NCBI GenBank assembly: GCA_026120185.1
Contig: JANUWF010001614.1
Location: 3,273,501 to 3,337,500, forward strand
DNA: 64,000 nucleotides
Source of the DNA: Voacanga thouarsii
Lineage: Eukaryota; Streptophyta; Magnoliopsida; Gentianales; Apocynaceae
Reading direction: 5' to 3'
Shown here one piece after another: positions 3,035-55,487 of this stretch. The notes under the pieces were generated by a model, which had not been told where the DNA came from, ran no database searches, and worked only from the letters and a program-made list of their open reading frames with translations. The first letter of the stretch is position 1. Every line of letters starts with the position of its first letter. Position numbers and translations under genes: made by a program.

Positions 3035-3035
3035 T

Positions 3036-24778: not shown

Positions 24779-25060
24779 CACTACAAAAAAAAAGTGGCTT
24801 TTGGCAACACTTTTATTTGCAACATAGCAAAATTTGTGGTAAAATCTTGGTTTTTACTACAGTTTTGAATTCTGTTGCATATAAATCTTTTTTGTAATAC
24901 TTTATTTTGTCACGGCTACATTTTTGTAGATAAAAGTTCTTTTTTTACCACAGATTTAAAAATTGTGTAGGTAAAAATAATTTTTGGCCACAAAGATTTG
25001 AAATTGTGGGTAAATAAATTTTATTATCCATAGTTTTACTAAACTGTGGAAAAGCATATA
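24779..25060. repeat. CACTA left terminus and subterminal repeats
   Basis: After the terminal CACTACAA come several modules in which GTGGTAAA or its complement TTACCACAG flank short A/T spacers, for example TTACCACAGATTTAAAAATT near 24937 and CCATAGTTTTACTAAACTGT near 25029. Such modules are the usual transposase-binding regions of CACTA elements. Confidence 0.75.
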
Positions 25061-25229
25061 TATTTTTTTATTTTATCAAATATATATTACAAAATTTCAA
25101 CATAAAATGGAAGCTTTCCTTAGATAATATGGTTGAGGTAATTGTATATATTCAAGTGGTTTATATGTTCAAATCTTGACATTACTATTTTATTAATTTT
25201 TATATAGTTTTTTGGACCAATTACTTAGT

Positions 25230-27265
25230 TTTCTTGAATATTTTTGCAGATATTATGCTACATTCTGTTCCAAAATATATCCGATTACCTTCAAATTTTG
25301 TCATAACAGTTTTCTTATTAATTTTAACAAATCTAACGGTTAGATCATTAATTTGATATGCTTATCGTTGTAAATGCGTTACATTTTGGATATTTTTCTA
25401 GATATTATGCTAGATAATGTGGCAAAATATATCTGATTACCTTTAAATTTTTGTCATAACATTTTTCTTAGCAATTTTGACAAATATAACAATTGGATCA
25501 TTAATTTGATATGCCTATCTTTGTACATGCGTTAGGTTTTGAATATTTTTTTTAGATATTATATTAGATTATGTACCAAAAAATATAATAATTTTAACAA
25601 ATATAATGATTGGATCTTTATTTTTATACGCCTATCTTTGTAAGTGGTTATGTTTTGGATATTTTTTTAGATATTATGGTAGATTATGTACCAAATTATA
25701 TCCGATTACCTTCAAATTTTGTCATAACACTTTTCTTAGTGCTTTTAATAAATCTAATGGTTGGATCGTTAATTTGATACGCATATCTTTGTGAATGCGT
25801 TATGTTTTGGATTTTTTTAAATATTATACGAGATTGTGTATCAAAATATATCCGATTACTTTCAATTTTTGTCATAACACTTTTCACAGTAATTTTAACA
25901 AATCTAAAGTTGGATCATTAATTTGATACACCTATCTTTATAAATGCATTAGGTTTGGATTTTTTTTAAAGATATTATGCTAGATTATATACCAAATTAT
26001 ATCTAATTACCTTCAAATTTTGTCATAACAATTTACCTAGTGATTTTAATAAATCTAACAGTTGGATCGTTAATTTGATACGCTTATATTTGTCAAAATG
26101 TTAGGTTTTGGATATTTTTTTAGATATTATGCTAGATTATGTATCAAAATATATCTAATTACTTTTAAATTTTGTTATAATACTTTTCATAGTAATTTTA
26201 AGAAATCTAATAGTTGATCGTAAATTTGATATGCTTATCTTTGTAAATGCGTTAGGTGTTGGATTTTTTTTTTATAGATATTATGCTAGTTTATGTACTA
26301 AAATATTTCCGATTACCTTCAAATTTTGTCATAACACTTTTCTTAGTGATTTTGACAAATCTTACGGTTGGATTGTTAATTTGATTGATATGCCTATCTT
26401 TATAAATGCCTTAGGTTTTGGATTTTTTTTAGATACTATACTAGATTGTTGACCAAAATATATCTGACTACATTCAAATTTTATCATAACACTTTTCTTA
26501 GTGATTTTAACAAATATAATGGTTTGATCATTAATTTAATATGCTTATCGTTGTAAATGCGTTAGGTTTTGGATATTTGTCTAGATATTATACTTGATTA
26601 TGTGCCAAAATATATCCGATTACATTCAAATTTTGTCATAACACTTTTATTAGTGATTTTAACAAATCTAATGGATAGATTATTAATTTGATATGCCTAT
26701 CTTTGTAAATGCGTTAGGTTTTGGATATTTTTCTAGATATTATACTCGATTGTGTTCCAAAATATATTCGATTACCTTCAAATTTTGTCATAAAAATTTT
26801 CTTAGCAAATTTAACAAATCTAATAGTTAGATCGTTAATTTGATATGCCTATCTTTGTAAATGCGTTTGGTTTAAGATATTTTTTAGATATTATGCTAGA
26901 TTATGTATCAAAATATATCCGATTACCTTCAAATTTTGTCATAACACTTTTCTTTGTCATTTTAAGAAATCTTACGGTTAGATCATTAATTTGATATAAC
27001 TATCTTTGTAAATGCATTAGGTTTTGGATTTTTTTTAGATATTATATTAGATTATGTATCAAAATATATCCGATTACCTTCAAAATTTTGTTATAACACT
27101 TTTCTTAGTGATTTTAAAAAATCTAATGGTTGGATCTTTAATTTGATATGCATATCTTTGTAAATGCGTTAGGTTTTGGACTTTTTTTTAGATATTATTC
27201 TAAATTGTGTACCAAAATATATCCGATTACTTTCAAATTTTATCATAAACACTTTTCTTAGTGAT
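25230..27265. repeat. Tandem array of about 14 copies of a ~152-bp unit
   Basis: The anchor AGATATTATGCTAGATTATG or a variant recurs at about 25249, 25401, 25555, 25670, 25820, 25971, 26123, 26277, 26432, 26584, 26736, 26887, 27038 and 27191. The spacing is 150-155 bp except for one 115-bp unit with an internal deletion. Each unit also has CCGATTACCTTCAAATTTTG, CATAACACTTTTCTTAGTGA and TTGTAAATGCGTTAGGTTTT. The array is AT-rich and diverged between copies. Frames at 25606-25794, 25696-25887 and 26231-26452 arise only from the repetition. Confidence 0.9.
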
Positions 27266-28474
27266 GAAGGATTAAAAGAAAAAAGGAAGAGAGAAATAAA
27301 TATAATATTTATCTTATATTAATATATAGTATTAAATAACAAACTAATAAAAATGAACCACACTCTATTCCTTTAATGAAATTTACTTCTTACAAACAAT
27401 CAAAGAGAAATAAAATTAGAAAAAAATAATTTTTTTTACTAAACTTCTTGTGATTTTATCCTAGTGAGTAAGGTATAATGTTTTAAAATTTTTAAATTCT
27501 AATGTTTTTTTTATTTACATTGATAAAATTGATATTATTTTATATTTTATTTTAGTCTCATTGATAATAAATAATAAATGTTATTTTTTCATAAAGCACA
27601 AATGTTTTTTATGTTATGATTTTAGATATTCAAAATACAATTCATATTTAGATTTGATAGCATTTAGGAGATCTAATTAAACATTACAACTATTAGTTTG
27701 AATTTTTAGGGAAGAGAAAATCAAAAATAGATATGCTAATGTTGAGAAACTAAGATTATGAGATTAATTAGATATCTTTGCAAAAATCACATAATTTTGA
27801 GAGGGTCTAATGAATTTTTCGTAGTCCTTTGAAGTTGCACATCCTTAGCAATTTTAACTAATCTAACAGTTGGATCATTATTTTGATATGGTTATCCTCA
27901 TAAATGCATTAGGTTATGGGCTTAAAGATTATGCTAGTTTATGTAGAAAAATAAATTCGAGTACCTTAAGGAATTTGTAATAAAATAATACCCGTGTACC
28001 ATTAGCACCATTAATGGACTAAATAATAAATTTTAATAAAAAAATTTTTTTGAAGAAAAATTTAATCAAATTAAGGAATCTGTAAATGTAGATATCAATA
28101 CCCGTGTAATATTAACGCCATTAAAAAAAAGTACTATAGAGAAAAAGAAAAAAAGAGAAAAAAAAGAAAAAGAAAGAGGATTTTTTGTTGGAGACTATAA
28201 GTTTTTTACATAATACATGATATTTTTAAATATAATATAATCAAAATATTTTACAGAAAAAGAAATGCACTTCCTCTCTAATACTCTATAAGTTTTTCTT
28301 TTCTTCTCTTTCCTCTTTAATTCTATTCTTACTTCCTCTGAATCTTTTATACTATTTCAACTTAATTACTACTGCTGCAACAATTACAATTATTGTTTGA
28401 AAATAGAGAATTTTGTTTTATTTGAAAGAGATAGGTTAGGAAAATGGGTTCGGAGTTGATCTACAGGGGACATA
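27266..28474. other. AT-rich CACTA spacer with one stray repeat unit
   Basis: Mostly A/T-rich sequence without coding potential. From about 27838 to 27965 a diverged single copy of the 152-bp unit reappears (AATCTAACAGTTGGATCATT, AAATGCATTAGGTTATGGG, GATTATGCTAGTTTATGT), detached from the main array. It ends with GGGTTCGGAGTTGATC and the TSD ACATA before a solo LTR. Confidence 0.55.
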
Positions 28475-29248
28475 TGTAACACCCCCACTACCTAGGCCCA
28501 ACAAGGCCGGGGATATTGCCCCGTCTAAAGGATAAGGGGTCTTTATAACTAAATCACACAAAAGGAAATAAAAATAATAGTTTAAAATTGAACTTATTAC
28601 AACCCAAAAATTCAGAAACAAATCCAAAATAAATTGATTACTATCATCTCTCAAAACAACACACAAAATAAATAACATAAAATCTTCAAAGCAAGCAACA
28701 AATCTAGCTACTCATCTCCACAGTAGGATCGACCTGAAAACATGGCATAAAAGGTGATGAGATAAAAATCTCAGTAAGCCCGTATGTGCTTTAAGTGTTT
28801 CAGGTAAAACAGTTCATGTATGCAAGCTGTAAAAATTGTATAAGAGAAAGTTCTGGCAAGCAATAAATAAAGTTAAAAATAAAGAGTGGCGTTTTGCTTT
28901 TCAAATCATACATGTGCACAATAAATACAACCACTCAAATGGGCAGCCATGGGTTACCACACGTTGGGCCCCATGACCATATAACGGTTAGAATGCCACA
29001 CTTTGTGCAGACTGACAAAAGGTAGGTGATCGGCCTATTGGGTGAGATACTCCTCCTTCTCTACACCCGAACTTACCGGTTGTCCACTTCGAAAACATAC
29101 AGTCCACATGACTGAAACTTGCTAGCTTAGACCGGCATGACTTATTAGACTGGCATCCTATCCGGGAAGGACTCACCCCTCAGAGGTGGCCACCTACTGA
29201 GAGACTTACCTTAACTCTTCAAATACTAGTCCTAGTAGTCTACCCTTA

Positions 29249-29260
29249 TTGAATACTCAA
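29249..29260. promoter_or_regulatory. Conserved LTR palindrome (one mismatch)
   Basis: TTGAATACTCAA, one base different from the perfect palindrome, 774 bp from the LTR 3' end. Confidence 0.4.
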
Positions 29261-29772
29261 TGATGATTGTCCCACTTGGGAAAAAAATTGATAATGCATT
29301 ACTTTATTTGAAAATAGCAATTAAGAGTTTCTAAAATTCTTGTCAAAGTTAGTTTTTAGAAAGAGTTTAGTGTTTGTGCAAAACTGCTTGTTTGATTTTC
29401 AAATGATTTGTTTGACTGAAACAAGAAAGGAAATAGTCCTTAATTGCGTTTACAAAATGAGTGTCCATACACATCGAGTTTGGCTTGCCATAGAAATCTT
29501 GTCTTCAAATAAGTTTATGCAGAGGTTGTGAAACCCTGATCAAAACCAACCTTAGAGTAAGGGGGTTGGGATGCATATCATATTTTATTTCATGGTTAAA
29601 TACATTTTCATATGATTTTTATGTGTTTTGGATTCGGGTTTTATTGTCTTGAAGTCTTGTTGGTGAGTATTGTGTGAGAGGGGCAAGATGGTAATTTTTG
29701 CCCGAGGTGAAAATAGGGAGATAGCTTGTGGATTGAATAGAAAATAATTTTCTAGTAAAAATATCAACAAGA

Positions 29773-29837
29773 GTTGTTGTGGTGTAGTGGTTAGAGTTTT
29801 GGAATTAATTCTTGAGGTCTTGGGTTCAAATTCCATC
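29773..29837 (+). other. tRNA-like segment in gypsy LTR (copy 2)
   Basis: It reads GTTGTTGTGGTGTAGTGG, which fits box A, and 45 bases later GGGTTCAAATTCC, near the box B consensus with one extra base. It starts 246 bp inside the LTR. Confidence 0.55.
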
Positions 29838-31462
29838 ATAGAAGCTTTAGCTAGATTAAATTTTATTTTTGCTTAGTGGAGGAAATTTCGGTCTTAGGAG
29901 CTTAGAGTAAGGTAGGGATGATGTCCTAAGAGAGACATGCTAGGAGTATTCTAATTCCACTCTTTGGCCCTACTCGAATTTCCTAAAGGGAATTCTTGTT
30001 CCCTTGATCTTTGGTTTTCCTTAGGTTTCAACTTCTTAGTTTGATCAAGATGTTTTATCCATTTTCTTTCCAGAAATTTCAGTAAAATGCTGTGATCTTG
30101 TGGGATCAAAATGCCCTAGTAAAAGGCCTCTCATGGTCTGAAAAATGTGGAAGAATGGTGGGAAATTCCAAGGGGAAAAATCCCTCTAGTAAGCTTGCTG
30201 AAATTTCACTCTAGACTAGTTCATCTTCCTTCATGGCATGAGCTGAAATTTTTCAGCTTGTTGTACCTTCAAAATGTCGAAATTTTTAGCTAACATTCCC
30301 TCCCAAATGCTGCCAGAAAAATGATCTTTAGGATCAGTTTGAAACCTGAAAATTCTTGACCAATTTCGGACTGCTCAAAGCTGGAGCAAAACAGGAAAAA
30401 ATTCCTGTACGAAAAACAGTTTTGAGAGTCCAAAACCAAGCTGTTTTTTCCAGATCTTGTTCAGTACCTTAGCCATGTTTTTCCTTCATGAAGAAGGCTG
30501 GAAACCAGCCTTGAATACCCCTGAAATTCCCTTCAAAACTCGCTACAAATTGGCTGGTAGTGGCAGCCGAAAATCTGCCCAGAAAAATTCCTGTTCAGCG
30601 AAATGCTGGGCAGTCCAAATTTCCAGCTTTGTTTCTTATTTTTCTTCTGGCCGAAATACCAACCTTAATCTGTCAAAACCTTTCTTAAACCTCCATTAAC
30701 AGAGCTCCATTATTTCCCTCAAGCTTCTGCATGAAATTCAGCAATGGCTGTCCGAAAATCTCTTCAACAAATCCCTGCAATTTAGCTTAATTGGTTTCCA
30801 AAATTCTAGCCATCCTTGTTTAGCAACCTTCCATAATATCTTACTCAAATGACCAAACATCTTCTTCATCATTGTGCACCTTAGTTTTGGCCACCATAAG
30901 CCACCTTGAATCAGCTTTAATTCCTCAGAAAAGCTGCTCAACCAGTCGGCCATAGGAGACCTTCAAAGCTCTCCAAATTATCAAGATATCCTAGAATATT
31001 TAGTTTCCATATTCACTTCCTAAAAATATTCTCCAAGGATTGTGACCACTAACCCTTCATTTTCTCTTCCAAATCAGAGAAACAACTCCCTAAACCCTAC
31101 AAAAATTCGGCCAGCCTTATCCCTCACAAAAATTCGACAGCTGCACAAGAACCACCTCTCGAAATCTCTCAATCTCCAAGAACACACACACTACACCAAG
31201 AACACCTACCTCTTCCCTACACTTAATACCCCTCCAAACCATCTCAAATCCTCTCAAAAACTTTCAGATTTGACCTACTCACTGCTGTGAGTCCATCAAC
31301 ACCATTATTAACATCAAATTCCTCAAATCATCTTGCTACTTCAGATCAAAAGCAGAAATTTTTGTGAAGGACAAGAACATCTTCAAGGTAAATTTACTCT
31401 ATCAACTTCATCTTCTCCAAACATGATCTCTAGTGAGAACCTATGTGAATAAACATACTAAT

Positions 31463-31464
<2 letters not shown>

Positions 31465-31512
<48 letters not shown>
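31465..31512. repeat. CT microsatellite
   Basis: 48 bp of TC repeats. It lies at the same LTR position as the GA runs at 35169-35230 (62 bp) and about 40233-40247 (short) in the sister LTRs. Confidence 0.95.
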
Positions 31513-31514
<2 letters not shown>

Positions 31515-31729
31515 GGCTGAAACTCCTCTCCCTTGGCCGGATGACTTCTTCTCCATAATCATGCTCTCGCCATCTCCTTTGGACAAAGTTAGACACTTAG
31601 GAGTTGAGATCTACTCTAAACTCCTTCAAGGCGTTCATCAACCAAGTAAGTACCATCAATCCTTCTTTTAAACTCTAGAAGCAGTCTCTAGGGTGATAAT
31701 GATAATAGGTGGATGGTGATAGGATTTGA

Positions 31730-31730
<1 letters not shown>

Positions 31731-31765
<35 letters not shown>
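31731..31765. repeat. TA microsatellite
   Basis: Uninterrupted TA dinucleotides inside the inner solo LTR. Confidence 0.95.
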
Positions 31766-31770
<5 letters not shown>

Positions 31771-33077
31771 AGATTGAAGTATGAATATATGTATGATTGT
31801 GAAGGAGATGGGATTTATGCATGGAAGGATTGTCTTGGATGATTATATGATGATTTGAGGTTGATGCATGTCATAAGTAGTATATGTGATGAAGTATGCT
31901 AGAGATTATGTCGCCTTTGGTGAATAGGGTTTATATTCATGATGGATTAATATTGAAGCCATGATCATATTTATGCTAGTCGAGGTTAGATCATGTGTTG
32001 ATAAATTGAGATCTATGCTTATATGCATGATTTGGATGATTTGATGAATTAAAGGATTGTGTATGTATTGATTGTGGTTAGCCATAGGAATTTGATCATG
32101 ATCTAGTTGTCCCCAAACAAATTTTTACTTCATGAATAAAATATTCAATAAAATAATTTCTCTTAGTATTTTTGAAAAAAAAAAAACCTAGGAAGGGTAG
32201 ATTTGGATTGTCATATATATAAAGGATATTTTAGTCAAACAAATAATGATTTTTGCTAGAAAAATAAAATATATATATGTATATATTACTTAATATAATG
32301 AGATCAATTAAAGCCTTTATGAAAATAATTACAATTAGTAGAATATATATTACTAAAAATTTAACTATTATCTTCTAATCAAAACTCCTTAAGAATTTAT
32401 TTAATATTGTTCAAGTGAGACTCATAAAATTTATTTTCAACTAATTTTAGCTACCAATTATTTTCTAACAACGAAATTATTAATAAATCAATATTTTATT
32501 TAATACTACCTAGAACTCTTGATCAAATAAACTCTAAATTTTCCCTAACAAGATTTAAGCTTTCAACTTATTAAATTTATTTCCCAAACCATTAATTATT
32601 TTAAATAATTGTGCTAGGCTCAACTCTTAAACCTATTTACTTATTATTTAACCTTAAAGCTTGGGACACTAGGATCATGGTAGTAGTAAGTTGAGTTAAT
32701 TTAAAATTAAGGAAGTAGTTTGTGGCTTGAAATTGATTGTGATTTGTATTTGCCCATGTGGGGTTAGGTCTGTCGTTGGAGACCTTGTTATTGTGAGCAA
32801 GAATTAGGTAAGCTCCTGCACAAAACCTGTTTGATGCAAAATGTTTATTATGGCAAGCCAAGTGTAGAGTGCATGGACACTCATTTATGTAAAGGCAATT
32901 GAGGGTTAAATCCTTTCTTATTTCAAACATTTGAATTATTTAAAAGCCAATGAGCAGATTTACTCAAACTTAACCTCTTTCTAAAACTGATTTTGTTAAA
33001 GACTTTGGAAAACCCATAAATTGCCATTTTCATGTGGAACAGTGTTTTGTTCATTTTATCCCAAGTGGGAAACGTCG

Positions 33078-33089
33078 TTGAGTACTCAA
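33078..33089. promoter_or_regulatory. Conserved LTR palindrome
   Basis: TTGAGTACTCAA, perfect palindrome followed by TAAGGGTGGACTA, 800 bp from the LTR 3' end. Confidence 0.5.
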
Positions 33090-34427
33090 TAAGGGTGGAC
33101 TACTAGGACTAGTCTTTGAAGGGTTAAGGTAAGTCTCTCAGTAGGTGGCCACCTCTGAGGGGTGAGTCCTTCCTGGATAAAATGTCAGTCCAGTGAGTCG
33201 TGCCGGTCCGAGCTAGCAGTTTGTTTTCAATCAAGTGACTGTGGTTTGCCAGAATGGACACCCGGTTATTGTTTGGGTATAGAGAAGGAGGAGTATCTTG
33301 CCCAGTAGGCCGATCACCTACTTTTGTCAGTCTGCACAAAGTGTCGGCATTCTGACCGGTTTTGGGGCCCAACGTGTGGTAACCCATATCCCTTTCTTTC
33401 GAGCGGTTGATTTTATTACTTATGTATGGCTGGAAAAGCCAAAACGCCACTCTTGTTTTTGACTAATGTTATTGCTTGCCAGTATTTCTCTTATAAATGT
33501 TTCATACTTTGCATTCACGAACTGTTTTCACTAAACACCCGAAGCACACACAGACTTACTGAGATTTCTGTCTCACCACCATTTTATCATGATTTCAGGT
33601 CCATCCTGCTGTAGGCATGAGTAGCTATATATTGTCTGCTTTGGAAGAATTTTCTAAGGATTTATTTTGTGTAATGTTGGGAGAGCTGAGAGCGGATGAA
33701 TTTTTATTATGGATTTGTTTTGAGTATTCTTGGATTTATTATTATTTCTTTTGGGTTGTAATAAATTTTAAGTTGAAGTATCATTTTATTTCCGCTAATA
33801 TATTTGTGTGTCTTAGTTATAAAGACCCCTTGTCCTTTGGACGGGACGACATCCCTGACCCTGGCGGGCCTAGGTAGTGGGGTGTTACAGAGGCTTACCT
33901 AATCCTTTGCTTGATCAAACTTAAGAATCTTCCAAAGCTGATCTAACCCAACTTGGGGTAAACACAAGTCATAAGGTTATACTCAAGCTATATTCGCTTA
34001 CATAAATAATCTTAGTTCAATTAATTATAATCATGACCATAATGTCCTAAGTTTTAAGACTAGATGATAAAGGATTTTATAAAATAAGACTAGCTTGATA
34101 AGATAAAATAACTAGGGGCTGTAAAATAATTATTAATAAGTTATAGGTTCAAATAATAAATCTTGAGTGTTGTTATTAATAAATAAACTAGGGTTTAATT
34201 GTTGAAGAATCCTAAGTTCTAGATGATATTAATAAATGGTCATTCTTAAATAGTATTTTTAAAATAAATATTAAATTATTACTAATCTCTTTATTAATAC
34301 ATAGTAAATAATTAATAATATATAAATTTTATCAAGTTTTGATTAATAGATAACAAATAAATATAAATAGTATTTATGAATATATGGTCTACAAGGTCAT
34401 TAATATTTTACTTATTTGTATAAAAGG

Positions 34428-34469
<42 letters not shown>

Positions 34470-35167
34470 TTTAATAAAAGTTATTGTTTATTTGACTAGT
34501 AAAATATCACTATTTCATGGAATATTCCAATTTCAAAACTTTCTAAGAATTTCGAAATCTTGGGAGAAATACATAGTAATAATTTTAATTGGGGTAATAA
34601 AATTTGCTAATTAAAATAGCTTAGGATCAACAAGGTCATGATCATAATTTTCCTATTGCTAACAAGATTCATGAGCATATACTCCAACATCAATCAACAA
34701 ACTATTCTATTCATGAACAAAGGCTTAAATCCATACCTACTATCACATGATCAAATCCCTACTAAGCATAATCATACTCACGGCTTCAATGAAAATAAGA
34801 ACATAATATCCTATTCACCAAAAGTGACATAACATTCTAGCATGCTTAAACATTTATAATTTCTTAAGACATGATGAACATGCATCGATCCATAAGGAAA
34901 TTCATAAAGCTTAACCATGATCAATCATTCTCATGCTACAATCTCAACTTCTTCATACATATACATATACTCAATCCCCCATTCGTATTCTATCCTTCCT
35001 ATCAACAACCAAGAGACATGAATCCAGAATTCAAAAGAAAGGTTAAAGAGAAATACTTGGTTGATGACTATCTTGATGAAGATTTAAGAAGATCCACGCG
35101 CTTGAGAGTCTTGAATTGTCCAAGGGAGGAGAAAGAAAACAGCCATGGTTGTAGCAATGATTTCGGT

Positions 35168-35168
<1 letters not shown>

Positions 35169-35230
<62 letters not shown>
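35169..35230. repeat. GA microsatellite
   Basis: About 62 bp of GA repeats inside the split solo LTR. Frames across it encode only R-E or S-L repeats and are not genes. Confidence 0.95.
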
Positions 35231-35232
<2 letters not shown>

Positions 35233-36784: not shown

Positions 36785-36846
36785 GGGATTTGAACTCAAG
36801 ACCTTAGAGATTAATTCCAAAGCTCTAACCACTAAACCACAACAAC
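36785..36846 (-). other. tRNA-like segment in gypsy LTR (copy 3)
   Basis: The minus strand reads GTTGTTGTGGTTTAGTGG and later GAGTTCAAATCCC, which fits box B closely. It starts 250 bp inside the LTR. Confidence 0.55.
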
Positions 36847-37218
36847 TCTTGTTCTTATTTTCTCACCCAAATATTCTTCTTATTTAATCCTCAAGCTATC
36901 TTCCTATTTTGACCTCAAGCAAAATTACTGTCTTACCCTTCATACTCAGTAAGTATAACCAAGCCTTCTAGACTATAAATCATAATTCTAAAGCACATAA
37001 AATTATTCAAAAAAATAAAAATATATATATATATATATATATATTCATGCATCCCAACCCCCTTATTCTAGGATTGACTTTAGGTGGGGTTTCACAACAT
37101 AAGTCCCAGCAGTTGAAAGATTAGTATTCGCCGAAGCCGCAAAAGCCATAGTCGTTGGTAGTTCAGCCAATTCATTATCTACTCCGGGAGCAGCGATTAG
37201 TTTTCATATTTATGGGCA

Positions 37219-41700: not shown

Positions 41701-41875
41701 TAAAGTCCAAGGGAGAATGAATTCCCTTTAGGCATTTCGCGAAGAACAAAAGAGTGAAGTGAGAATTCTCCTAACATGTCTCTCCTAGGACATCATCACC
41801 ACATTGATCTAGGCCCTCATGGCCGAAACCATCATTTTCCAAGCAAAATAAAATTACTCAAGCTAAAGCTTCTAT

Positions 41876-41940
41876 GATGGACTTTGAACCTTAGACCTCA
41901 ATAATTTATTCCAAAGCTCTAACCACTAAACCACAACAAC
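41876..41940 (-). other. tRNA-like segment in gypsy LTR (copy 4)
   Basis: The minus strand reads GTTGTTGTGGTTTAGTGG and later AAGGTTCAAAGTCC. It starts 246 bp inside the LTR. Confidence 0.55.
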
Positions 41941-44187: not shown

Positions 44188-44523
44188 AATAGATTTGTCT
44201 GTAGTGAGGCATTTGATGCTTTTCTTTTTCTTGGTTATTTTTGAATTTTTGAAATGGAATCAATCATTATGTCAATTTGTTAGGAGGGTACAAGGAAAAA
44301 TCCTAGTGCTAACCAAGCAGCAATCTTGATGGTTCAGCCTGCATTTTGATGTTTCCAGCTTTTTACTTGTCTTCGCCACTGGTTCTACTATTGTTGTATG
44401 CTACAGGAAAGCCACAAAAATAGTAGACTTCATCTTTTGGCAATATTCTTGCTACTTTTATTTCTCTAGAATTTGAATTTTATGAAGGTCTTTATGTTCT
44501 TAGATTATAATGGATGATCATCA
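44188..44523 (+). other. Sequence after CDPK fragment, up to copia insertion
   Basis: Probably CDPK 3' untranslated sequence followed by the start of another captured segment. A possible acceptor (TTCTTAG) near 44492-44503 leads into ATGGATGATC, which continues after the copia element at 53425. Confidence 0.4.
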
Positions 44524-46560
44524 TGAGGGAACCGAAAACAAAGAGCATGTGCAGTCACGGGAAAAGAATTTAGAGAAAAATAAAACCAAGCCTTAGAGGC
44601 CACACGGAAGCGTGAAGATTATACCTTTGCGCTCCTTAACCCTTCTAGGTTGAGTAGGAGCGGATTGAACGACTGGAATCGCCTCGCTTTGTCCACTTGA
44701 AGAAGCTTCCGGTTGAACACCCGCTAGCCTTCTACTTCACCTTGTTTGCATCAACGCTAAGCTTTCCAGCTCTCGGAATACTCCTCAGCCTAACCTCTAG
44801 TCGGTGAACACTATGGTGAAGAGGAACGGTCTCAATTCTCCTTGGTCCACTTGCTATTGGTTAGCAAAGAACAAGGAGTAAACCCAGAGGAAGGAGAGAG
44901 ACGTTGAGAGAGAGAGACTCACGTGAGGCTCTGATAAGCTTAGGAGGATTAGGGTTTTCTTCTACCAGAGATTAGTTTATTGGTTAAGCCAAAACTAGGT
45001 CTCTCATTATCTGATAAACATATCCCCGAGATTTCATATTTCAAAACACCCGGATGTTATCTTGAGAATCTGTTTCGCCTAACCCTAAACTTTTGTTAGC
45101 CGTATCTGGAAAAAACCCTAAGGTCCAAGCTATTGGGCCGGAAAAATATTTATTATTTTCCTTGGACCCAAAAGGCCCAAAATAATAAACAATAATTATT
45201 TATTTCTTGGGCTTATATAAATAACTCAATAAATAATTAATGAGCCCAAATGAACTAAAATAATTAATCTTTAATTATTTATTTCATGGGCCTATATAAA
45301 TAACCCAATAAATAATTAAATATTAATTATTTTCCCTAGTTTAAGCCTAGGTTAATTTCCTAATTATTCATACTGGACCTAGGCCCTGAATAATTAATTA
45401 ACCAATTAAACTAGATAATTAATTTCTCCCAACTCCTATTTTAATTAATTTATTTATTTTATTACAGTCCAATAATAAATTAGACTTCCTGAATAAAATT
45501 AAATAAAATCAAATAAAATAAAATCCTCTTCAACTGAGACCAATTCCTCAACCCAAAATTAGTTAGGACTTACAGGCTATTTCGAGGACCAAAAAGACAC
45601 ATCGCCTTGGCTGCTAAAATGACCAAAATACCTCTGCTATATAATTAGCTGTATTTTGCATTTTAAATATCTCCTAATATCACCATAAGGAAATATTGAC
45701 CCTAAGGACAATGCTGCATTAGCAAAGTCTCCGACCTACAGGTGAAATGACTAAAATACCCCTCTACACATCGCCGTACATTTAGAGAGGAAGAAGTGTA
45801 CTAACACCCCTCTAAATGAAATCTACCATCCTTAGGCTTCTAGTCCAATGATTCACGACTTCTTGGAGTGTTTCTGCTTTCCAAGGAAGCTACCCTGAAG
45901 CAAACATCCAAGTTAAGTTTCCCAGGGCCCTGGACATTTTAGACCATTTGGACAATCACAAGGGGCGATATAATGCAGAAACTATCTTGTACAAGTCTGT
46001 CTTAACTAACTAGTCACACATACCCAACATGCAAGTATATTGGCCCTACGATAGAACCTCAACTATAGCAAATCAAAGTATATGCTTCCAACTTCGCCAG
46101 ACCACCAACCCATACTCAAGTCGTAGAGTATTAGTCCACGCTATAGCGGTAGTAGTCTAGGTTTCTACCATATAGTACTTTGAGAAACCACTACTACAGG
46201 TCCTATTCTACGTATTCGAAATACGCTTATGTCATGAAGTGAGTGGACTACCCACTGGCTAAAGGTAAGCCATTCCCCATTTGGAATTCATAACATAATA
46301 ACCTAAACATAATGAGATTCCCAGTCTCATCAATAGGTTAAGAACAAAAGTTTGTGTGTTAAATAACCCGTGATCCATACCTTACTATGAAAGACCACCA
46401 TTCACATGGATCACTTATTTAAACACAATGAGTCTGTTCCAAATGAAAATCATGCACAAACAAAAAGTAAATTCACAAGCAATTTCTGAAAATAAATTCT
46501 TTTATTAAAATATTCAATTTTACATCAGAAACCTAGTCTAAGAGGGCATACAATCCAACA
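44524..46560 (-). repeat. 3' LTR of copia element 2
   Basis: 2037 bp. The start TGTTGGATTGTATGCCCTCT is at 46560 and the end is at 44524. It is collinear with the 5' LTR over its full length. Confidence 0.95.
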
Positions 46561-46571
46561 ATCTCCCACTT
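46561..46571 (-). promoter_or_regulatory. Polypurine tract of copia element 2
   Basis: The minus strand reads AAGTGGGAGAT directly before the 3' LTR. Confidence 0.8.
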
Positions 46572-46576
46572 GCACT

Positions 46577-47146
46577 CTAAGACTGGGTAAGTTCATAGGC
46601 GCCCACCCCTATGGCGTCTAAGTGTCTCTTAAAGACTCCCTCAGCCAAAGGCTTGGTGAATGGATATACTAGATTATTTTCTGAGACAATATGCTCCACC
46701 ACGACTTCCCGTCTCTGGATGAAATCCCGGATTAAGTGGTACTTCCTCTCGATATGTTTCCCCTTCTTGTGGTTCCGAGATTCCTTAGATTGCGATACTG
46801 CTCTAGTGTTGTCGCAATACATCACAATCGTCCTGTCCATATGTGGTACGACTCCAAGTTCTGAAAGAAACTTCCGGAGCCAAACTGCTTCCTTGGAGGC
46901 CTCCGAAGCAGCCACATACTCAGCTTCCATGGTTGAGTCAGCAATACAAGACTGCTTAATACTCCTCCATGAAATTGCTCCTCCAGACAAGGTGAAGACA
47001 TATCCACTAGTGGATTTTCTCTCATCCTTATCCGCCTGGAAGTCTGAGTCTGTGTAACCTGTAGGAACCAAATCATCAGCTCTGTAAACTAGCATATAAT
47101 CTCTCATTCCCTTGAGGTACTTGAGAATATGCTTACAGCTTGCCAA
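46577..47146 (-). CDS. Copia element 2 RNase H segment
   Basis: The 189-residue open frame covers the end of pol. ASCKHILKYLKGMRDYML joins RT to RNase H. GYTDSDFQADKDERKSTSGY, STMEAEYVAASEASKEAVWL, YCDNTRAVSQSKE and HIERKYHLIRDFIQ are the standard copia RNase H blocks, with the acidic residues D, E and D in place. This domain removes the RNA strand during cDNA synthesis. The frame closes just before the polypurine tract. It is out of frame with the RT segment upstream, so it is an intact stretch of a broken polyprotein. An antisense frame at 46611-47057 is its shadow. Confidence 0.9.
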   Translation of the reverse strand: MASCKHILKYLKGMRDYMLVYRADDLVPTGYTDSDFQADKDERKSTSGYVFTLSGGAISWRSIKQSCIADSTMEAEYVAASEASKEAVWLRKFLSELGVVPHMDRTIVMYCDNTRAVSQSKESRNHKKGKHIERKYHLIRDFIQRREVVVEHIVSENNLVYPFTKPLAEGVFKRHLDAIGVGAYELTQS

Positions 47147-48105
47147 TGAACCTCACCTTGGTTTGACTGATATCTGCTAACTAAGCCCACGACAAAGCAG
47201 ATATCTTGCTTAGTACACAGCATGGCGTACATGAGACTTCCCACAGCCGAAGCGTAGGGAATCCTACTCATTCTGTCCTTTTCTTCTTGAGACTTAGGAC
47301 AGTCCTTCGAAGAAAATGACAACCCATGTCTGCAAGGGATTAGAGCTCTCTTGCATGAGTCCATGCTGTACTTGGCCAACATCTTGTCAATATATGTCGC
47401 TTGGGATAACCCTAACATTCTCTGCTTCCTATTTCTAAGAAGCCTAATCCCGAGAATGTAGCTGGCTTCTCCCAAGTCCTTCATACTGAATTGACTAGAC
47501 AGCCAAACCTTTGTAGATGACAATGTCCCTACATCATTTCCAATGAGTAGAATGTTATCTACATACAGGACAAGAAAAACCACATTAATGCCTTCAAGTT
47601 TCCTGTACACGCATAGTTCATCTTCGTTTTAAATAAAATCATAAGACTTTACAGTCTTATCAAAACGAATGTTCCATGCTCTTGATGCCTGCTTAAGTCC
47701 ATAAATGGACTTCTTAAGCTTGCAAACCATATGTTCCTAGCCTTCAGCAATGAAGCCTTCCGGTTGGGACATATAGATGTCTTCGCTAAGATGGCCATTT
47801 AAAAATGCCGTCTTGACATCCATTTGCCATATCTCATAGTCATAGTGATATGCGATGGCAAGGAGGATGCGGATGGATTTAAGCATGGCTACCGGGGAAA
47901 AGGTTTCCTCATAGTCGATACCTTCTTTCTGAGTATACCCTTTCGCCACAAGCCTAGTTTTGAAGGTTTCCACCTTCCTATCCGCTCCTCTCTTCCTCTT
48001 GTATACCTACTTGCACCCAATGGGTTTTATCCCTTCAGGTGAAGCTACAAGATCCCAAACCTGATTGAGGTACATAGACTCAATCTCGGCTTTCATTGCT
48101 TCATG
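47104..48105 (-). pseudogene. Copia element 2 reverse transcriptase, broken
   Basis: Pieces at 47737-47973 ([41 protein letters not shown]) and 47104-47610 (LVLYVDNILLIGND, QFSMKDLGEASYILGI) are joined by KLKKSIYGLKQASRAWN. The catalytic YVDD box reads YVDN, so the second aspartate is lost. Two stops replace tryptophan (TGG to TAG, at the integrase-RT border and in the GCKW motif near 48008), and others replace likely glutamines near 47630 and 47735. A frame change near 47110-47140 separates it from RNase H. Confidence 0.9.
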
Positions 48106-49458
48106 CTAAGGATTTGCATCGGCATCAGCAATAGCCTCCTCGTATCTAGTGGGGTCTTGTTTCTGATGGTCGGAGACCAGCTCAAAGGCTTCTCCTGTCC
48201 ATCTATCCGGAACCCTAGACACTCTCCCACTACGACGAGGCTCCATTTGCACAGGCTCTTGAGGCTGTGCCTCTTCTTGTTCCAGAATAAGGTCAGAAGA
48301 AGTTGATTCCGTAGATAACTTCTCCTCAAGTTCCAACCTCGTTGAACCTTTAGTGGAAGTACTTTGATCATCTTCCAAGTATCTAGCATTGGTACTGATT
48401 AGTACCTTCTGCTCCTTAGGATGATTAAAGTAACCTCTTTTTGTCTCTTTTGGATACCCAGCAAAATAGCATAATTCTGATCTTGGTTCTAACTTGTCTC
48501 CCTTGATTAGTACATAAGCTGGACATCCCCAAATCCTGAGATGATTCAGACTTGGCTTACGCCCAATCCACATCTCATAAGGAGTCCTAGGTACTGACTT
48601 AGAAGGCACCAAGTTCAGAATATATGCCGCTGACTCCAGTGCATATCCCCAAAAGGACATTGGAAGAGTAGCATGAGACATCATGCTTCGGACCATTTCC
48701 ATCAACGTCCTATTCCTTCTGTCAGCTACTCCGTTCTGCTGGGGTGTTCCCGGTGTAGAGAGCTGGGATACTATCCCATGATGTACCATGTAGTCCTTGA
48801 ATTCACCTAGGAGGTACTCTCCACCACGATCCGATCGTAAGGTTTTGATTAATTTACCTGTCCGACGCTCCACTTTAGCCTTAAACTCCTTGAACTTGTC
48901 AAAAGAGTCAGACTTGTGTCTCATCAGGTAAATGTAACCATACCTCCTACAATCATCCGTGAACATGATGAAGTACTCAAAACCTCCCCTAGCTGGTGTA
49001 GACAATGGACCACACACTTCAGTGTGAACAAGACTCAACACCTCTTTGGCTCTATCCGCCTTTGGTGTAAAAGACCTTTTGGTCATTTTTCCCATCAGGC
49101 AGGATTCACATTGAGGCCAACTTTTCAATCTCAATGAGCCCGAAGGCCCATTATAGATTAGTCTCTGAATCCTGGTTGAGTTAATATGACCCAACCTTAG
49201 ATACCAAAGGTATGAATCATTGATTTTGGTCTTTCTCTTCCTAGTTAAAGGTTCAGACACAGCATTATTTGATTGGTTATTAATAGGGTTTAAAAAGAAC
49301 AAATTACCATACATGTGCCCAATACATAAAATTTCTTCATCTCTACTGATATAAATACCAGAATGGAAAGATACAGAATATCCTTGATTAATAAGTTTTG
49401 CAACTGAAATCAAATTTTGACGAAAACCAGGTACATATAAAATATCCTTTAAAACCAC
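48106..49458 (-). CDS. Copia element 2 protease end and integrase
   Basis: The open frame of 450 residues contains the end of protease (ILYVPGFRQNLISVAKL), the GAG-pre-integrase zinc-binding region (LWYLRLGHINSTRIQRL ... CESCLMGKMTKRSF), the integrase core (FIMFTDDCRRYGYIYLMRHK, TLRSDRGGEYL, GTPQQNGVADRRNRTLMEMV) and the linker to RT (RRSGRVSRVPDRW). Integrase inserts the cDNA into the genome. Two of the three catalytic acids look altered: HTEVCGP where the family has HTDVCGP, and VADRRN where it has VAERRN. The middle D (RSDRGGE) is kept. The frame ends at a TAG replacing tryptophan. Confidence 0.9.
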   Translation of the reverse strand: MVLKDILYVPGFRQNLISVAKLINQGYSVSFHSGIYISRDEEILCIGHMYGNLFFLNPINNQSNNAVSEPLTRKRKTKINDSYLWYLRLGHINSTRIQRLIYNGPSGSLRLKSWPQCESCLMGKMTKRSFTPKADRAKEVLSLVHTEVCGPLSTPARGGFEYFIMFTDDCRRYGYIYLMRHKSDSFDKFKEFKAKVERRTGKLIKTLRSDRGGEYLLGEFKDYMVHHGIVSQLSTPGTPQQNGVADRRNRTLMEMVRSMMSHATLPMSFWGYALESAAYILNLVPSKSVPRTPYEMWIGRKPSLNHLRIWGCPAYVLIKGDKLEPRSELCYFAGYPKETKRGYFNHPKEQKVLISTNARYLEDDQSTSTKGSTRLELEEKLSTESTSSDLILEQEEAQPQEPVQMEPRRSGRVSRVPDRWTGEAFELVSDHQKQDPTRYEEAIADADANP

Positions 49459-49465
49459 TATCTTA

Positions 49466-50108
49466 TTACAATAAAAAAATGAGATCTAGCTCTCCCACTG
49501 CAAGGGCCCAGACTTGTGCTCCATTGCCCACTCGAAGCCCATGTTCGCCCTTCTTGAGTCTTCTTATCTTTCTAAACCCATGCAAGGAGTTATAGATATG
49601 ATCAGTGGCTCCTGAATCAACAATCCAAGTAGAAGTTGATCCTACCATTGATATGAACTCTAGATAGTAAACATTACCTGTGGGATTTTTCTTGGCCTGA
49701 AGATCTGGACACTCTTTTTTCCAGTGTCCCTTCTTCCCACACTTGAAGCACTTGCCCTTTGGTTTGTCCTTGGGCTGGGTCTTGGGCTGGGCTACAGCAT
49801 TCCCCTTCTTCCTCTTGAACTTTCTGGGTTTAAGCCCAGTTCTTGAAGAAGAAGCCTTAGCAATCATGGCCTTTGACTGCGGCTTCATGACCTTCTCCGC
49901 CATCTGGAGCTCCTTCATCAGTTCAGTTAAACTCATATTCAACTTGTTCATGTTATAGTTTAACTTGAACTGAGTGAAAGAGCCCGGTAGAGATTCGAGA
50001 ACCATGTCCACTTGGCTCTCGGGTCAATGACAGCCCCTAAGATTTCTGCCTCCTCGAAAGCAGCAATCATCTTGAGCATATGCTCTCGGACTGATGCTCC
50101 CTCAAAAA
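49466..50108 (-). pseudogene. Copia element 2 gag (C-terminal part) and protease start
   Basis: The frame at 49466-50011 gives DMVLESLPGSFTQFKLNYNM, NKLNMSLTELMKELQMAEKV, a zinc knuckle CFKCGKKGHWKKECP with all four ligands, and protease STWIVDSGATDHI with an intact DSG. A homopolymer near 49474-49482 shifts the frame before the next segment. Upstream of 50011 the frame shifts again near 50025, and gag is recognisable only to 50108 (EGASVREHMLKMIAAFEEAE). The first half of gag, including its start codon, is absent. Confidence 0.85.
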
Positions 50109-51364
50109 TAAAATATCTAAGTCCAATAAAATCTCTATGTCAAGGCTTATATCCTATGAGAGATTTCTCCATGGACTAATTTTATTTAAGTTAAAACTTA
50201 ATGATTTCAAAATTTTCCAATTAAAACTTTCTAGGGACTTTGGTCTCAAGTTTATTTGACAAAATAATTTTTCTAGTCCAAAACAAAACAAAATGGCTCT
50301 CCATTTTAATTTACAAAAATATCTAAATCCAATATATTTTCTATGTCAAGGATTAAATCATTTGAGAAAATATTCAAGGATTAATTTTTGTACCAATTAA
50401 AATAACCATTTAATTTTTGAAGAAAAATTTTTTTCTTGTCAAAAATGTTCCCAAAGACCAAAGTCTTTGGGAAAAAGCACACATAGGTACATAAAAAAAA
50501 ATAGCATGCTCAAAACAATAAACGTTTTCATGCTTTTCTATTTTTTAAACCTAAGTGCCCAAATAATAGAATTAAACACATTAATTAATTAATTAATGAT
50601 CTTGTTTAATCCTAAAATCCCTTACTAATATTTTTCATGCAAATATATTTCAAGAATATAAATATTGCAAAAATATTAACTTCGCCTGGTATGGGACCCA
50701 AAACGAAAAAGAAAAAAAAATTGTAGAAAAAACGCTGGCGGTCCCCTGCACCGCGCCGCACCAGATCCGCGGCCGCATGGCGCGGTGCACCGCGCCACAT
50801 CGGATCCCTCATTGCACAACCCATGGAGCTGCCCACATCCCGCAACCCGCGATCGTTTCACCTCTGCTACCGACCCGCGAAGATCCGTGCTTTTGTCCGA
50901 TTTGCTGACCCGCGCTTCAATTGTAAATTTGCAATTGCAAATTTCATGCAATCGGCTCCAATTCTCCCAGCGGCTCGGCTCAACAGCGACCGGCTCTCCT
51001 CACAGAAACGCAGAGGCTCGGCTCGCATGGCTTAGGAACAGTGTCATCTTCTTCATTTTTTTCTTCTGTCCACGCGAAAATTTGCAGAGGCTTTTCCCTT
51101 CACCTTTTGCTTATTTCTTTGGCTTCTTTGGACATTTTTACTTACAAAAAACATCCAAAACAAAACCACAATCGCCTATACCCATTAAAATTGGGTTAAC
51201 ACGATTAACTAGCAAAGCCAAAAAAAAATTTACAGTGATGTCTATGCTTCAACGATGAAGCTCACAGAGATCCTATCCCATACCAAAACAGCGAAGGATC
51301 ACAGGTATAATCATCTTCTCCATTTTTATTAACTACCATGCTCCCTATATTGATAAAAAAACCA
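50109..51364 (-). other. Leader of copia element 2 with internal duplication
   Basis: A/T-rich sequence between primer site and gag. Around 50110-50318 and 50321-50460 the same block repeats in diverged form (ATATCTAA.TCCAATA, CTATGTCAAGG, GACTAATTTT or GATTAATTTT), about 211 bp apart. A GC-rich patch (50725-51030) holds several CGCG-containing motifs. The short frames here (50612-50845, 50785-51258) have no family match that I recognise. Confidence 0.55.
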
Positions 51365-51379
51365 GTGACTCTGATACCA
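51365..51379 (-). promoter_or_regulatory. Primer-binding site (tRNA-Met), copia 2
   Basis: The minus strand reads TGGTATCAGAGTCAC three bases after the 5' LTR end. Confidence 0.9.
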
Positions 51380-51382
51380 CAT

Positions 51383-53419
51383 TGAGGGAACCAAAAATAG
51401 AGAGCATGTGTAGTCACGGGAAAAAAATTTAGAGAAAAATAAAACCAAGCCTTAAAGGCCACACGGAAGCGTGAAGATCATACCTTTGCGCTCCTTAACC
51501 CTTCTAGGTTGAGTAGGAGCGGATTGAACGACTACAATCGCCTCGCTTTGTCCACTTGAAGAAGCTTCCGGTTGAACACCCGCTAGCCTTCCACTTCGCA
51601 TTGTTTGCATCAACGCTAAGCTTTCCAGCTCTCGGAATATTCCTCAGCCTAACCTCTAGTCGGTGAACACTATGGTGAAGAGGAACGGTCTCAATTCTCC
51701 TTGGTTCACTTGCTATTGGTTAGCAAAGAACAAGGAGTAAACCCAGAGGAAGGAGAGAGACGTTGAGAAAGAGAGACTCACGTGAGGCTCTGATATGCTT
51801 AGGAGGATTAGGGTTTTCTTCTACCAGAGACTAGTTTATTAGTAAAGCCAAAACTAGGTCTCTCATTATCTGATAAACATATCCCCGAGATTTCATATTT
51901 CAAAACACCCGGATGTTATCCTGAGAATCTGTTTGGCCTAACCCTAAACTCTTGTTAGCCGTATCTGGAAAAAACCCTAAGGTCCAAGCTATTGGGCCGG
52001 AAAAATATTTATTATTTTCCTTGGACCCAAAAGGCCCAAAATAATAAACAATAATTATTTATTTCCTGGGCTTATATAAATAACTCAATAAATAATTAAT
52101 GAGCCCAAATGAACCAAAATAATTAATCTTTAATTATTTATTTCTTGGGCCTATATAAATAACCTAATAAATAATTAAATATTAATTATTTCCCCTAGTT
52201 TAAGCCCAGGTTAATTTCCTAATTATTCATACTGGACCTAGGCCCTGAATAATTAATTAACCAATTAAACTAGATAATTAATTTCTCTCAACTCCTATTT
52301 TAATTAATTTATTTATTTTATTGCAGTCCAATAATAAATTAGACTTCCTGAATAAAATTAAATAAAATCAAATAAAATAAAATCCTCTTCAACTGAGACC
52401 AATTCCACAACCCAAAATTAGTTAGGACTTACGAGCTATTTCGAGGACCAAAAAGACACATCGCCTTGGCTGCTAAAATGACCAAAATACCCATGCTATA
52501 TAACTAGCTGTATTTTGCATTTTAAATATCTCCTAATATCACCATAAGGGAATATTGACCCCAAGGACAATGCTGCATTAGCAAAGTCTCCGACCTACAG
52601 GTGAAATGACTAAAATACCCCTCTACACATCGCCGTACATTTAGAGAGGAAGAAGTGTACTAACACCCCTCTAAATGACATCTACCATCCTTAGGCTTCT
52701 AGTCCAATGATCCACGACTTCCTGGAGTGTTTCCGCTTTCCAAGGGAGCTACCCTAAAGCAAGCATCCAAGTCATGTTTCCTAGGGCCCTGGACATTTTA
52801 GACCATTTGGACAACCACAAGGAGCGATATAGTGCAGAAACTATCTTGTACAAGTCTGTCTTAACTAACTAGTCATACATACCCAACATGCAAGTATATT
52901 GGCCCTACGATAGAACCTCAACTATAGCAAATCAAAGTATATGCTTCCAACTTCGCCAGACCACCAACTCATACTCAAGTCGTAGAGTATTAGTCCACGC
53001 TATAGCGGTAGTAGTTTAGGTTTCTACCATATAGTACTTTGAGAAACCACTACTACAGGTCCTGTTCTACATATTCGAAATACGCTTATGTCATGAAGTG
53101 AGTGGACTACCCACTGGCTAAAGGTAAGCCATTCCCCATTTGGAATTCATAACATAATAACCTAAACATGATGAGATTCCCAATCTCATTAATAGGTTAA
53201 GAACAAAAGTTTATGTGTTAAATAACCCGTGATCCATACCTTACTGTGAAAGACCACCATTCACATGGATCACTTATTTAAACACAATGAGTCTGTTCCA
53301 AACGAAAATCGTGCACAAACAAAAAGTAAATTCACAAACAATTTCTGAAAATAAATTCTTTTATTAAAATATTCGATTTTACATCAGAAACCTAGTCTAA
53401 GAGGGCATACAATCCAACA
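51383..53419 (-). repeat. 5' LTR of copia element 2
   Basis: 2037 bp, equal in length to the 3' LTR. It starts at 53419 and ends CCCTCA at 51383. Confidence 0.95.
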
Positions 53420-53424: not shown

Positions 53425-53533
53425 ATGCCCAGATGGAATCGCAGTTACACGCTTCACATTCCAGTCTATCTATGCTCAAAGTGATGATGAGAAGCTTGAA
53501 TTTGAATATAAATAAGGGAATACAAATATTCTG
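53425..53533 (+). pseudogene. Unidentified captured exon
   Basis: Joined across the copia insertion to 44510-44523, the reading is MDDHQCPDGIAVTRFTFQSI and YAQSDDEKLEFEYK, then TAA, then GNTNIL before a GTAATC donor at 53534. The protein-like composition, the upstream TTCTTAG acceptor and the downstream donor suggest an exon. I do not recognise the family with confidence. The in-frame stop shows that it is decayed. It is the fourth gene-like segment in the CACTA core and has the same strand as the others. Confidence 0.5.
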
Positions 53534-54930
53534 GTAATCTAGACCTTAATTACTTGGTTTTATCTTATTATTTAATTTCTATTGGTACTTTTATATTTCA
53601 AGGGTTGAAGTTTGTTTGGTGAGTTGGACAATGAAGTTGGATCAAAGTAAAGATGTGGTGACTCATGATGAAAAAAGGTAGAAGGATTTTTCATTTTTAC
53701 GCAGGGTGTTTTTTTTTGGGGAAGGGGTGTGGTAAGTGACGTGGTATATTTGTACCTAGTTCAAATGACATAATTTTTCATGCGTCAGTGACGACTATTT
53801 CATTTTTCTTATAGTTCAAAATCCTCTTGTTTCTATGGTTCTGTCAGACTCTAGTCCCTACCACATGTTATGAGTAGAAATATCAATTTTATTTTGTCAG
53901 TACCCTATCATCTTGTGGTCCTATTTTAATTTATGCACCAAAGATATGGATGCTAGCTACTCTTGATATTCACTATTGTAGGATTTGGATCAGTTTTTTT
54001 TCCCCTTATACTTAGTCTATGTTTTGGTGACCATCTTTTGTGGCCTAAATGTAGCTTTCAGTATTTTCCTGACTTTGAGATTGCTGCAAGTGTTTGTGTC
54101 TTTGCAAATTAGTGGAAATGTCAATTTAGTTGCTTCATTTCTTTTGGGGACCACAAGAGGGGGTGGGATGCTAAATGGCTAAGTATTATCTTATCAAGTG
54201 GATGTTAATGCAGAGAGATAAATCAGTAATGGGAGTGGTTGACATGATATGTTTTTCTAAGTGTTGATGTATGATGAAATTAAGGAATTTATTGACTCTA
54301 TTCCTCCCTTTAAGAATATGTGGTCATAACTGTTAGGTCAGAATATAGCTTAACAATAAGGTTCACTGGTGAGTTTTTACCTCTGTATATAATGCCACCT
54401 TAAAATTTTAATCTTGTTAGACCTTCATCCCTTTCTCCTGGTATATAAGGTTATTTTGGTTTGTGTTTATGATGTTCTGATTTATTTTAACTTGCATTTC
54501 AGTTGGTGATTTGAATCACTTGATTTTTGCTACCATGAGTGGAGTGACTTGCTGTCTCTGATTCCTTGGTGAACTGAATTCTAATCTCCGTACGCTTGCT
54601 GTCAACCTCATTCCCTTCCCCTGATTGCACTTCTTCATGGCTGGTTTGCTCCTTTGACCTCACGTGGCTCTCAGCAATATTGTGCAGTTACAGTTCCTAA
54701 GCTTACATAACAAATGTGGTGTATATTAAGTTATTATTGGAAGATGGCATTTTAAATGTTTGATCAATGGATGATAGTTGATTGTTAATATTGGAGGTTT
54801 TCATAGTTCTATATATATAGTAGATGATGATGTTGTTAAAGTAGAGGGAAAAATAATTTAATATTTTGGCTAAAGTTTTGCATTTTATGATGGATAATTT
54901 CAAATAAGGTTATTAGGATAAATGCAATAT
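53534..54930. other. Intron-like or unassigned CACTA interior
   Basis: T-rich sequence following the unidentified exon, plausible as an intron. The frames at 53985-54182 and 54703-54903 show no family features. No transposase motifs were found. Confidence 0.4.
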
Positions 54931-55487
54931 CACTACGGATTTACATTTGTAGTGAAAAAGATTAATATATAACAATGTAAAAAATTTATCAAAAAATTGT
55001 GAGAAATGATTTTTTCTGATATTAAGAATTCCGTGGAAAAAAGTATTAATTACAACAGTAAGGGAATTGTAGCAAATGGATATTACCCACGGTTATGTCA
55101 ATTTAGAAAAGAACCGTGATTATTTCTAACTGAAATTTAACTGTAACAAATAATATTCATCACAATTGAAAAATATTGGAAAAATCATGACAAAAAATTG
55201 AAATCTTTGCCTACAGTTAATAACCATTGAGAAAAGCTGTGGCAAAAGCTCATGAACAAATAACACACTTCATTTACAACAACTACAAAACTGTGGTAAA
55301 TCTGTGGTAAAAGGTATTTCTCACGGCTACACAATTGTGCCAAACTTTTTGCAATGGCTGTAATGCCCATGCCTAAAAAATCGTGGTGTTTCCATGGCAA
55401 AAATGTATTTGCCATAGTTTTGACCAATTTAGCCACACTTTCTCTGGCATTGCCAAAAGTCTTTTTTTTTTTTTTTTTTTTGTAGTG
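54931..55487. repeat. CACTA right subterminal repeats and terminus
   Basis: It holds repeated modules such as CCACGGTTATGTCAATTTAG, GTGGTAAATCTGTGGTAAAA and CACGGCTACACAATTGTGCC. It closes with GGCATTGCCAAAAGTC, a T run and TGTAGTG. The minus-strand end mirrors the left terminus, including CTTTTGGCAA. Confidence 0.8.

Follow-up and report, generated by a model that had tools for sequence, protein, structure and literature searches.

Results

Position and boundaries of the element

The 64,000-nucleotide stretch of Voacanga thouarsii DNA analysed here (G000:C807:3273501-3337500, hereafter the window) contains a non-autonomous CACTA transposon of the kind termed Pack-CACTA, which carries pieces of host genes as cargo, lies within one long terminal repeat (LTR) of a repeated retrotransposon, and was itself later struck by LTR elements; we place the probability of this reading at roughly 95%. 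The insertion occupies positions 24779-55487, begins with CACTACAA, ends with TTGTAGTG, possesses CACTA terminal inverted repeats, and is bordered by a 3-bp target-site duplication, AGA, all of which agrees with a first-pass annotation made from the letters of the window alone. The same ends occur in other copies, and repeated motifs can be seen by eye in both subterminal regions. The coordinates of the individual features are collected in Table 1.

The flanks had been proposed to be the two halves of a single LTR, and a genome search (1.35 Gb in 1848 contigs) bears this out. A 538-nt query that joined 269 bp of each flank around a single AGA returned 4394 candidates, the best 40 of which were scored, and of the 42 resulting matches two were the halves in the window itself, two were short fragments, and 38 were LTR copies in which the alignment crosses the junction. 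Six of these copies were read as prospective empty sites and all proved uninterrupted, with AGA at the target in four and other bases in two (L051 and L052). Because 38 copies cross the junction and the six read lack the insertion, the flanks can be regarded as one LTR into which the CACTA element inserted. The name "Athila-like" that had been attached to this LTR was not confirmed, as a Pfam scan of a frame downstream gave a sub-threshold match only; 3' of the right half lies a stretch that resembles a primer-binding site. Two inverted stretches elsewhere in the window (16685-17516) share 75-77% similarity with portions of the interrupted LTR (56298-57128) and probably belong to a related LTR.

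The region might instead be viewed as a set of host genes (TCP, VPS16 and CDPK) amid repeats with no transposon involved, a view to which the recognisable exons and splice sites lend some colour and which a gene finder might well adopt. This reading is refuted by the uninterrupted LTR sites, and the termini, the duplication, the occurrence of parts of the cargo at 20 places, exons that are not conserved over introns, and a stop codon in the CDPK exon of another copy (L009) speak against it as well, such that we accord it next to no probability.

A large family with common ends and varied interiors

The first-pass annotation had suggested a search for other copies with these ends, and this revealed that they belong to a large family with hundreds of candidate copies. 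The left end (24779-25060) yielded 604 candidates, of which the best 40 scored were the window and 39 others at 89-91% identity, and the right end yielded 606, with 39 others at 81-89% among the best 40 scored. For comparison of whole elements we fetched 20 stretches of ~10 kb from near the left ends of 20 of the 39 other copies, chosen with matches starting at the first base, a sample that is biased to close relatives. Both ends were found in 12 of the 20, with no right end within the remaining eight, and those read from end to end span about 3-9 kb, several of them with gene cargo. An exact 3-bp duplication flanks nine of the 12 (TCT, TCA in three copies, TTA, GAA, ATA, TAT and GGA, the last belonging to L024, in which the terminus is changed and was placed by eye), and the chance of at least nine of 12 such duplications arising from base composition is 1e-13. 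Together the ends, the duplications, the family and the uninterrupted sites support the CACTA classification that had been put forward.

A 152-bp tandem repeat recurs in most of these relatives, with 2-15 matches per stretch, a main array at ~510-2,700 bp from the left end, and single outliers in some. The interiors fall into groups that were assigned by eye from an all-against-all coverage table and that accommodate 19 of the 21 elements, L015 and L025 standing outside: group A (the window, L009, L013 and L020), group B (L010 and L019), group C (L014, L016, L022 and L023), group D (L017 and L021), group E (L011, L026, L027 and L028), and a looser group F without the array (L012, L018 and L024). 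Host-gene cargo is not confined to the group of the window. The beginning of a gene for T-complex protein 1 theta lies in L010 (5654-5983, minus strand; best E 4.5e-10), in an interior that L019 has as well, and L021 carries a piece that matches Ccdc124 (6327-6656, minus strand; Pfam E 1.6e-9), which was the only match above the cut-off in a Pfam scan of 10 frames from other family members. A frame in L026 has 16 relatives, none of them named. L015 and L016 lie ~10 kb apart (C865:28914 and 38969) with an identical ten bases on the left side, which suggests a tandem duplication of that region.

Later insertions and the size of the core

Much of the length of the insertion is of later origin. 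Three LTR elements reside inside the CACTA element, each with a 5-bp duplication, and a fourth is nested within the first (Table 1). These account for 21.8 kb of the 30.7 kb, and once they are removed a core of 8,926 bp remains, close to the ~8.9 kb that had been estimated; it is this figure and not 30.7 kb which describes the transposon proper. Fittingly, L009 (at C655) has the same order of parts without any nested element, measures 8,311 bp, and covers 95% of the core of the window copy.

The LTR pair of the nested element at 44524-53419 differs by a Kimura two-parameter distance (K2P) of 0.033 over 2037 sites. One frame of this element contains SH3-like, gag-pre-integrase and Pol_BBD domains above the Pfam cut-off, with an integrase core just below it, a domain set that we take to signify a copia-type retrotransposon. 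The copies of group A, with the array left out, diverge by K2P 0.06-0.12 (0.080 for the window and L009), and as this exceeds the divergence of the copia LTRs it is in line with a later insertion of the copia element. If a rate for rice is assumed, which may not be that of this species, these distances would correspond to ~3 million years for the window and L009 and ~1.3 million years for the copia LTRs. An inverted relative (~85%) of the copia LTRs lies at 3034-3917 of the window, and the outer of the two nested solo LTRs includes a pure GA run of 31 units (35169-35230).

Absence of a recognisable transposase

The element had been described as lacking a transposase, and our searches are in agreement. 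When two tnp2 domains of this genome served as tblastn queries, no match at E<=1 was obtained in the window or the other fetched loci, a search that covered the whole element for the window and for 12 of the 20 family stretches; the loci left out were L055 and L056, from which the domains came, and L001 and L029, whose sequence repeats that of the window. As a positive control, one domain found the other at 59% identity. Pfam scans, which covered selected frames, likewise gave no transposase. Genes of the tnp2 type are abundant in the genome (6170 candidates for Transposase_21, the best 150 of which were scored), and we infer that the element would have been moved in trans by the transposase of another CACTA element acting as autonomous partner.

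Host-gene pieces in the cargo

Pieces of at least three host genes had been claimed, and two of these, TCP and CDPK, are supported by our searches. The CDPK piece gave a best protein-search E of 3e-38, and its closest solved relative is CDPK AK1 (2aao), at 126 bits. The TCP piece is more decayed in the window, where a Pfam scan of the cargo gave no TCP match. The frame in L020 is less decayed and is matched by TCP19-type proteins with a best E of 2e-17 (33 of the 96 candidates reach E<=0.01), the named relatives being from flowering plants, and it is on these matches together with a likely source gene that the assignment is based. The third name did not fare as well: the VPS16-like peptide had no match in Pfam or the PDB, and VPS16 is a presumed name for the piece at 42187-43327.

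The likely source of the TCP19-like piece is at C474, which covers positions 211-701 of the TCP-region query at 89% identity (one of 20 matches). Here, the 341 bp read, which lie mostly upstream of the match, form a single open frame in which Pfam detects a TCP domain (E 1e-25), and this domain falls almost wholly outside the captured part. Identity between C474 and the window drops abruptly at the breakpoint, ~37308, from 36 of 44 positions on one side to 18 of 60 on the other.

To judge from the pattern of divergence, the captured pieces probably ride along as passengers and have no function at the protein level. Exons are no better conserved than introns, which is why they look non-functional: between the window and L009 identity is 91.0-95.8% in exons and 96.0-96.4% in introns, and the corresponding values to the window are 92.2-93.5% and 93.1% for L013 and 89.3-91.2% and 96.0% for L020, some of the stretches compared being short. 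In the second CDPK exon, 15 codons differ between the window and L009, giving 12 residue changes, one stop (in L009) and two silent differences, and a look for selection on the CDPK exon revealed none. It has to be considered that the pieces are nonetheless functional, for example as sources of small RNAs against their source genes or as chimeric exons, since the splice sites are intact in the window and exons of the soybean element Tgm-Express1 are, by the account in PMC1947982, spliced into transcripts; given the lack of exon conservation across copies, we judge this improbable.

Matching joints and a possible modular assembly of the cargo

Matches to the VPS16/CDPK region (query 42186-44520) number 31. 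Five of them lie elsewhere than in the cargo (a pair at C888:2116198-2116979 and single ones at C888:126016, C560 and C621:2963674), the C560 match being a short stretch that adjoins a TCP piece, and the rest represent 20 cargo places, one of which is the window. Near-complete versions of the stretch occur at six of the 20 places, the five apart from the window being 91-92% identical to it. The cargo has thus multiplied with the element.

The edges of the partial matches suggest that the cargo was assembled from modules. Five places with only the VPS16-like side end at query 1135-1144, and the CDPK module begins at 1146 and 1147 in two others. At the joint of the TCP19-like and VPS16-like pieces, the former ends at 701 in C474, and C773 and C792 begin at 700. 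At the left limit of the TCP19-like piece three places begin at 211 as C474 does, and three others end at 212-214. At the right-hand joint the match stops at 397 in two places and starts at 395 in seven. Complementary edges in separate sets are what is expected if the cargo was joined from segments that travelled separately. The overlaps of 0-3 bp would be compatible with end joining or with repair through short homologies, although alignments place such edges only to within a few bases. As such, the family may be a cargo-shuffling system in which fixed ends, mostly accompanied by the 152-bp array, enclose an interior that is remade time and again through the fusion of separately carried segments, the lineage of the window having arisen when a carrier of TCP19 and VPS16 pieces fused to a CDPK carrier at joints with 0-3 bp of overlap; we regard the chances of this as about even.

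The principal competing account holds that the full cargo was captured once and that the shorter combinations are later deletions. Internal losses are certainly present: L009 (C655:3417761-3419797) lacks ~1234-1501 of the VPS16/CDPK query, the copy at C620:1804010 lacks a short stretch, and four places lack ~1755-1825. Deletions clearly occurred, then, yet deletions scattered across a single large cargo would not easily yield edges that match one another in separate sets, as at 1135-1144 and 1146-1147, 395 and 397, or 700 and 701, and C474 has its TCP domain beyond the edge. We consider this account unlikely, albeit deserving of attention.

A number of observations run counter to the reading favoured here, that of a Pack-CACTA with a cargo joined from modules. 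Three of the 12 complete copies have no exact duplication, L009 (CAC/CTC) and L016 having one mismatch and L019 (CAC/TGC) being unmatched, and L009 is the very copy that serves as our main example without nested insertions. Eight of the 20 fetched stretches stop before the right end, so that the transposase test covered only their near parts. No family member that bears a transposase came to light: read by eye, the 150 scored Transposase_21 candidates all lie more than 30 kb from the 80 family ends that were listed, the closest being ~31 kb away on C198. A genome search with the VPS16-like exons (22 matches among 19 candidates) returned only known cargo carriers and no source gene, and the nearest CDPK exons outside the cargo carriers are just 71-77% identical. 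Lastly, six CDPK-side places begin at query 1250-1327, off the joint, several right-hand matches have scattered edges away from 395/397, and the order of joining was read from match edges and not from a tree. These off-joint edges bring modular assembly down from slightly better than even to even odds, and make the deletion account less unlikely by a similar small step.

For the Pack-CACTA with a modular cargo, the following course may be envisaged. The TCP19, VPS16-like, CDPK and further right-hand segments would first have been carried separately, and end joining or gap repair would then have linked them, perhaps via aberrant excision of neighbouring elements, a route to fusion that has been proposed for Arabidopsis Pack-CACTAs according to a review (PMC13317346). 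The LTR elements landed inside the CACTA element later.

To the left of the insertion, direct repeats of ~87% (3922-6821 against 10190-12132 and 14755-15706) are probably parts of other LTR elements. An Rfam scan of the window gave zero matches.

Table 1. Positions in the window of the CACTA element, its parts, its target site and the later insertions.
Feature	Position	Strand	Basis or remark
Left half of interrupted LTR	24510..24778	+	Joined-flank genome search
Target-site duplication AGA, left copy	24776..24778	.	Flank reading; AGA in 4 of 6 uninterrupted sites
Left end, CACTACAA terminus and subterminal region	24779..25186	+	24779-25060 matches 39 other listed copies, 89-91%
152-bp tandem repeat array	25187..27276	+	Repeat search; in 17 of 20 family stretches
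Left core segment common to part of the family	27277..28474	+	Copy comparison
Later insertion, solo-LTR-like, TGTAACACC...TTTCACA, itself interrupted	28475..37096	+	5-bp duplication ACATA
Solo-LTR-like element of the same kind, inverted, within 28475-37096	29527..33889	-	Duplication GAGGT/GAGGC
Cargo segment left of the TCP19-like piece	37098..37309	+	Matches at six other places are confined to this segment, in full or in part; three end at query 212-214
Captured 3' part of TCP19-like gene	37308..37798	+	Protein matches; likely source G000:C474:2549256-2549748 (89%)
First part of VPS16-like cargo module	37797..37936	+	C773 and C792 matches begin here
Later insertion, solo-LTR-like	37937..42186	+	5-bp duplication TACTC
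VPS16-like cargo module	42187..43327	+	Exon-like pieces 42886-42976 and 43078-43170, GT-AG intron; name presumed
CDPK cargo module	43331..44523	+	EF-hand exons 43357-43525 and 43749-43971, GT-AG intron
Later insertion, copia-type retrotransposon	44524..53419	-	5-bp duplication CATCA; LTR K2P 0.033
Rest of CDPK-side cargo module	53425..53821	+	Genome matches
Further cargo module	53819..54716	+	Also at places outside the VPS16/CDPK query matches
Right end common to the family, ends TTGTAGTG	54717..55487	+	Right-end genome search and copy comparison
Target-site duplication AGA, right copy	55488..55490	.	Flank reading; uninterrupted sites
Right half of interrupted LTR	55488..57147	+	First ~270 bp tested; outer limit from the first-pass annotation

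Discussion

The element is an ordinary but very clear Pack-CACTA, and what it adds lies in the legibility of its joints. A single genome displays the ends, the target site without the insertion, what is likely the source gene, the breakpoint, and cargo in several combinations, and a family with joints that can be read in this manner allows the fusion model of gene capture to be tested from sequence alone; were the cargo-shuffling reading to be true, it would show that model directly in a natural family. On a practical level, an annotation pipeline could mistake the transposon cargo for TCP and CDPK genes.

Pack-CACTA elements are described as lacking a transposase and carrying pieces of host genes, which in maize often stem from two or more loci (PMC8903248). 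As far as that source describes the elements of Arabidopsis, rice and maize, the window element resembles them in its CACTACAA-type ends, the 3-bp duplication, the lack of any transposase found, and the host-gene pieces, and departs from them in that most sampled members of its family have a 152-bp array near the left end and in that matching joints of cargo modules are legible across copies. The 5.7-kb CACTA element Tgm-Express1 of soybean is reported to hold fragments of five unrelated host genes that retain their exons and introns (PMC1947982), and the window element similarly holds gene pieces with introns; unlike Tgm-Express1, which is documented by a mutant allele and transcripts, it is known from its sequence only. 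Captured gene fragments together with internal satellite arrays are a feature of the CACTA-like Jozin elements of Chenopodium (PMC8978399), in which, by that description, the gene pieces precede the coding region of the element on its 5' side and the arrays sit on the 3' side, whereas the window element has its array on the left and yielded no coding sequence for a transposase. Finally, pvCACTA1 of common bean is portrayed as an abundant, protein-less family with no autonomous partner identified (PMC4938662), and ours is comparable in being large and in having no autonomous partner found among the candidates scored; in that portrayal pvCACTA1 is small, whereas the complete copies read in the present family measure about 3-9 kb and several of them hold gene cargo.

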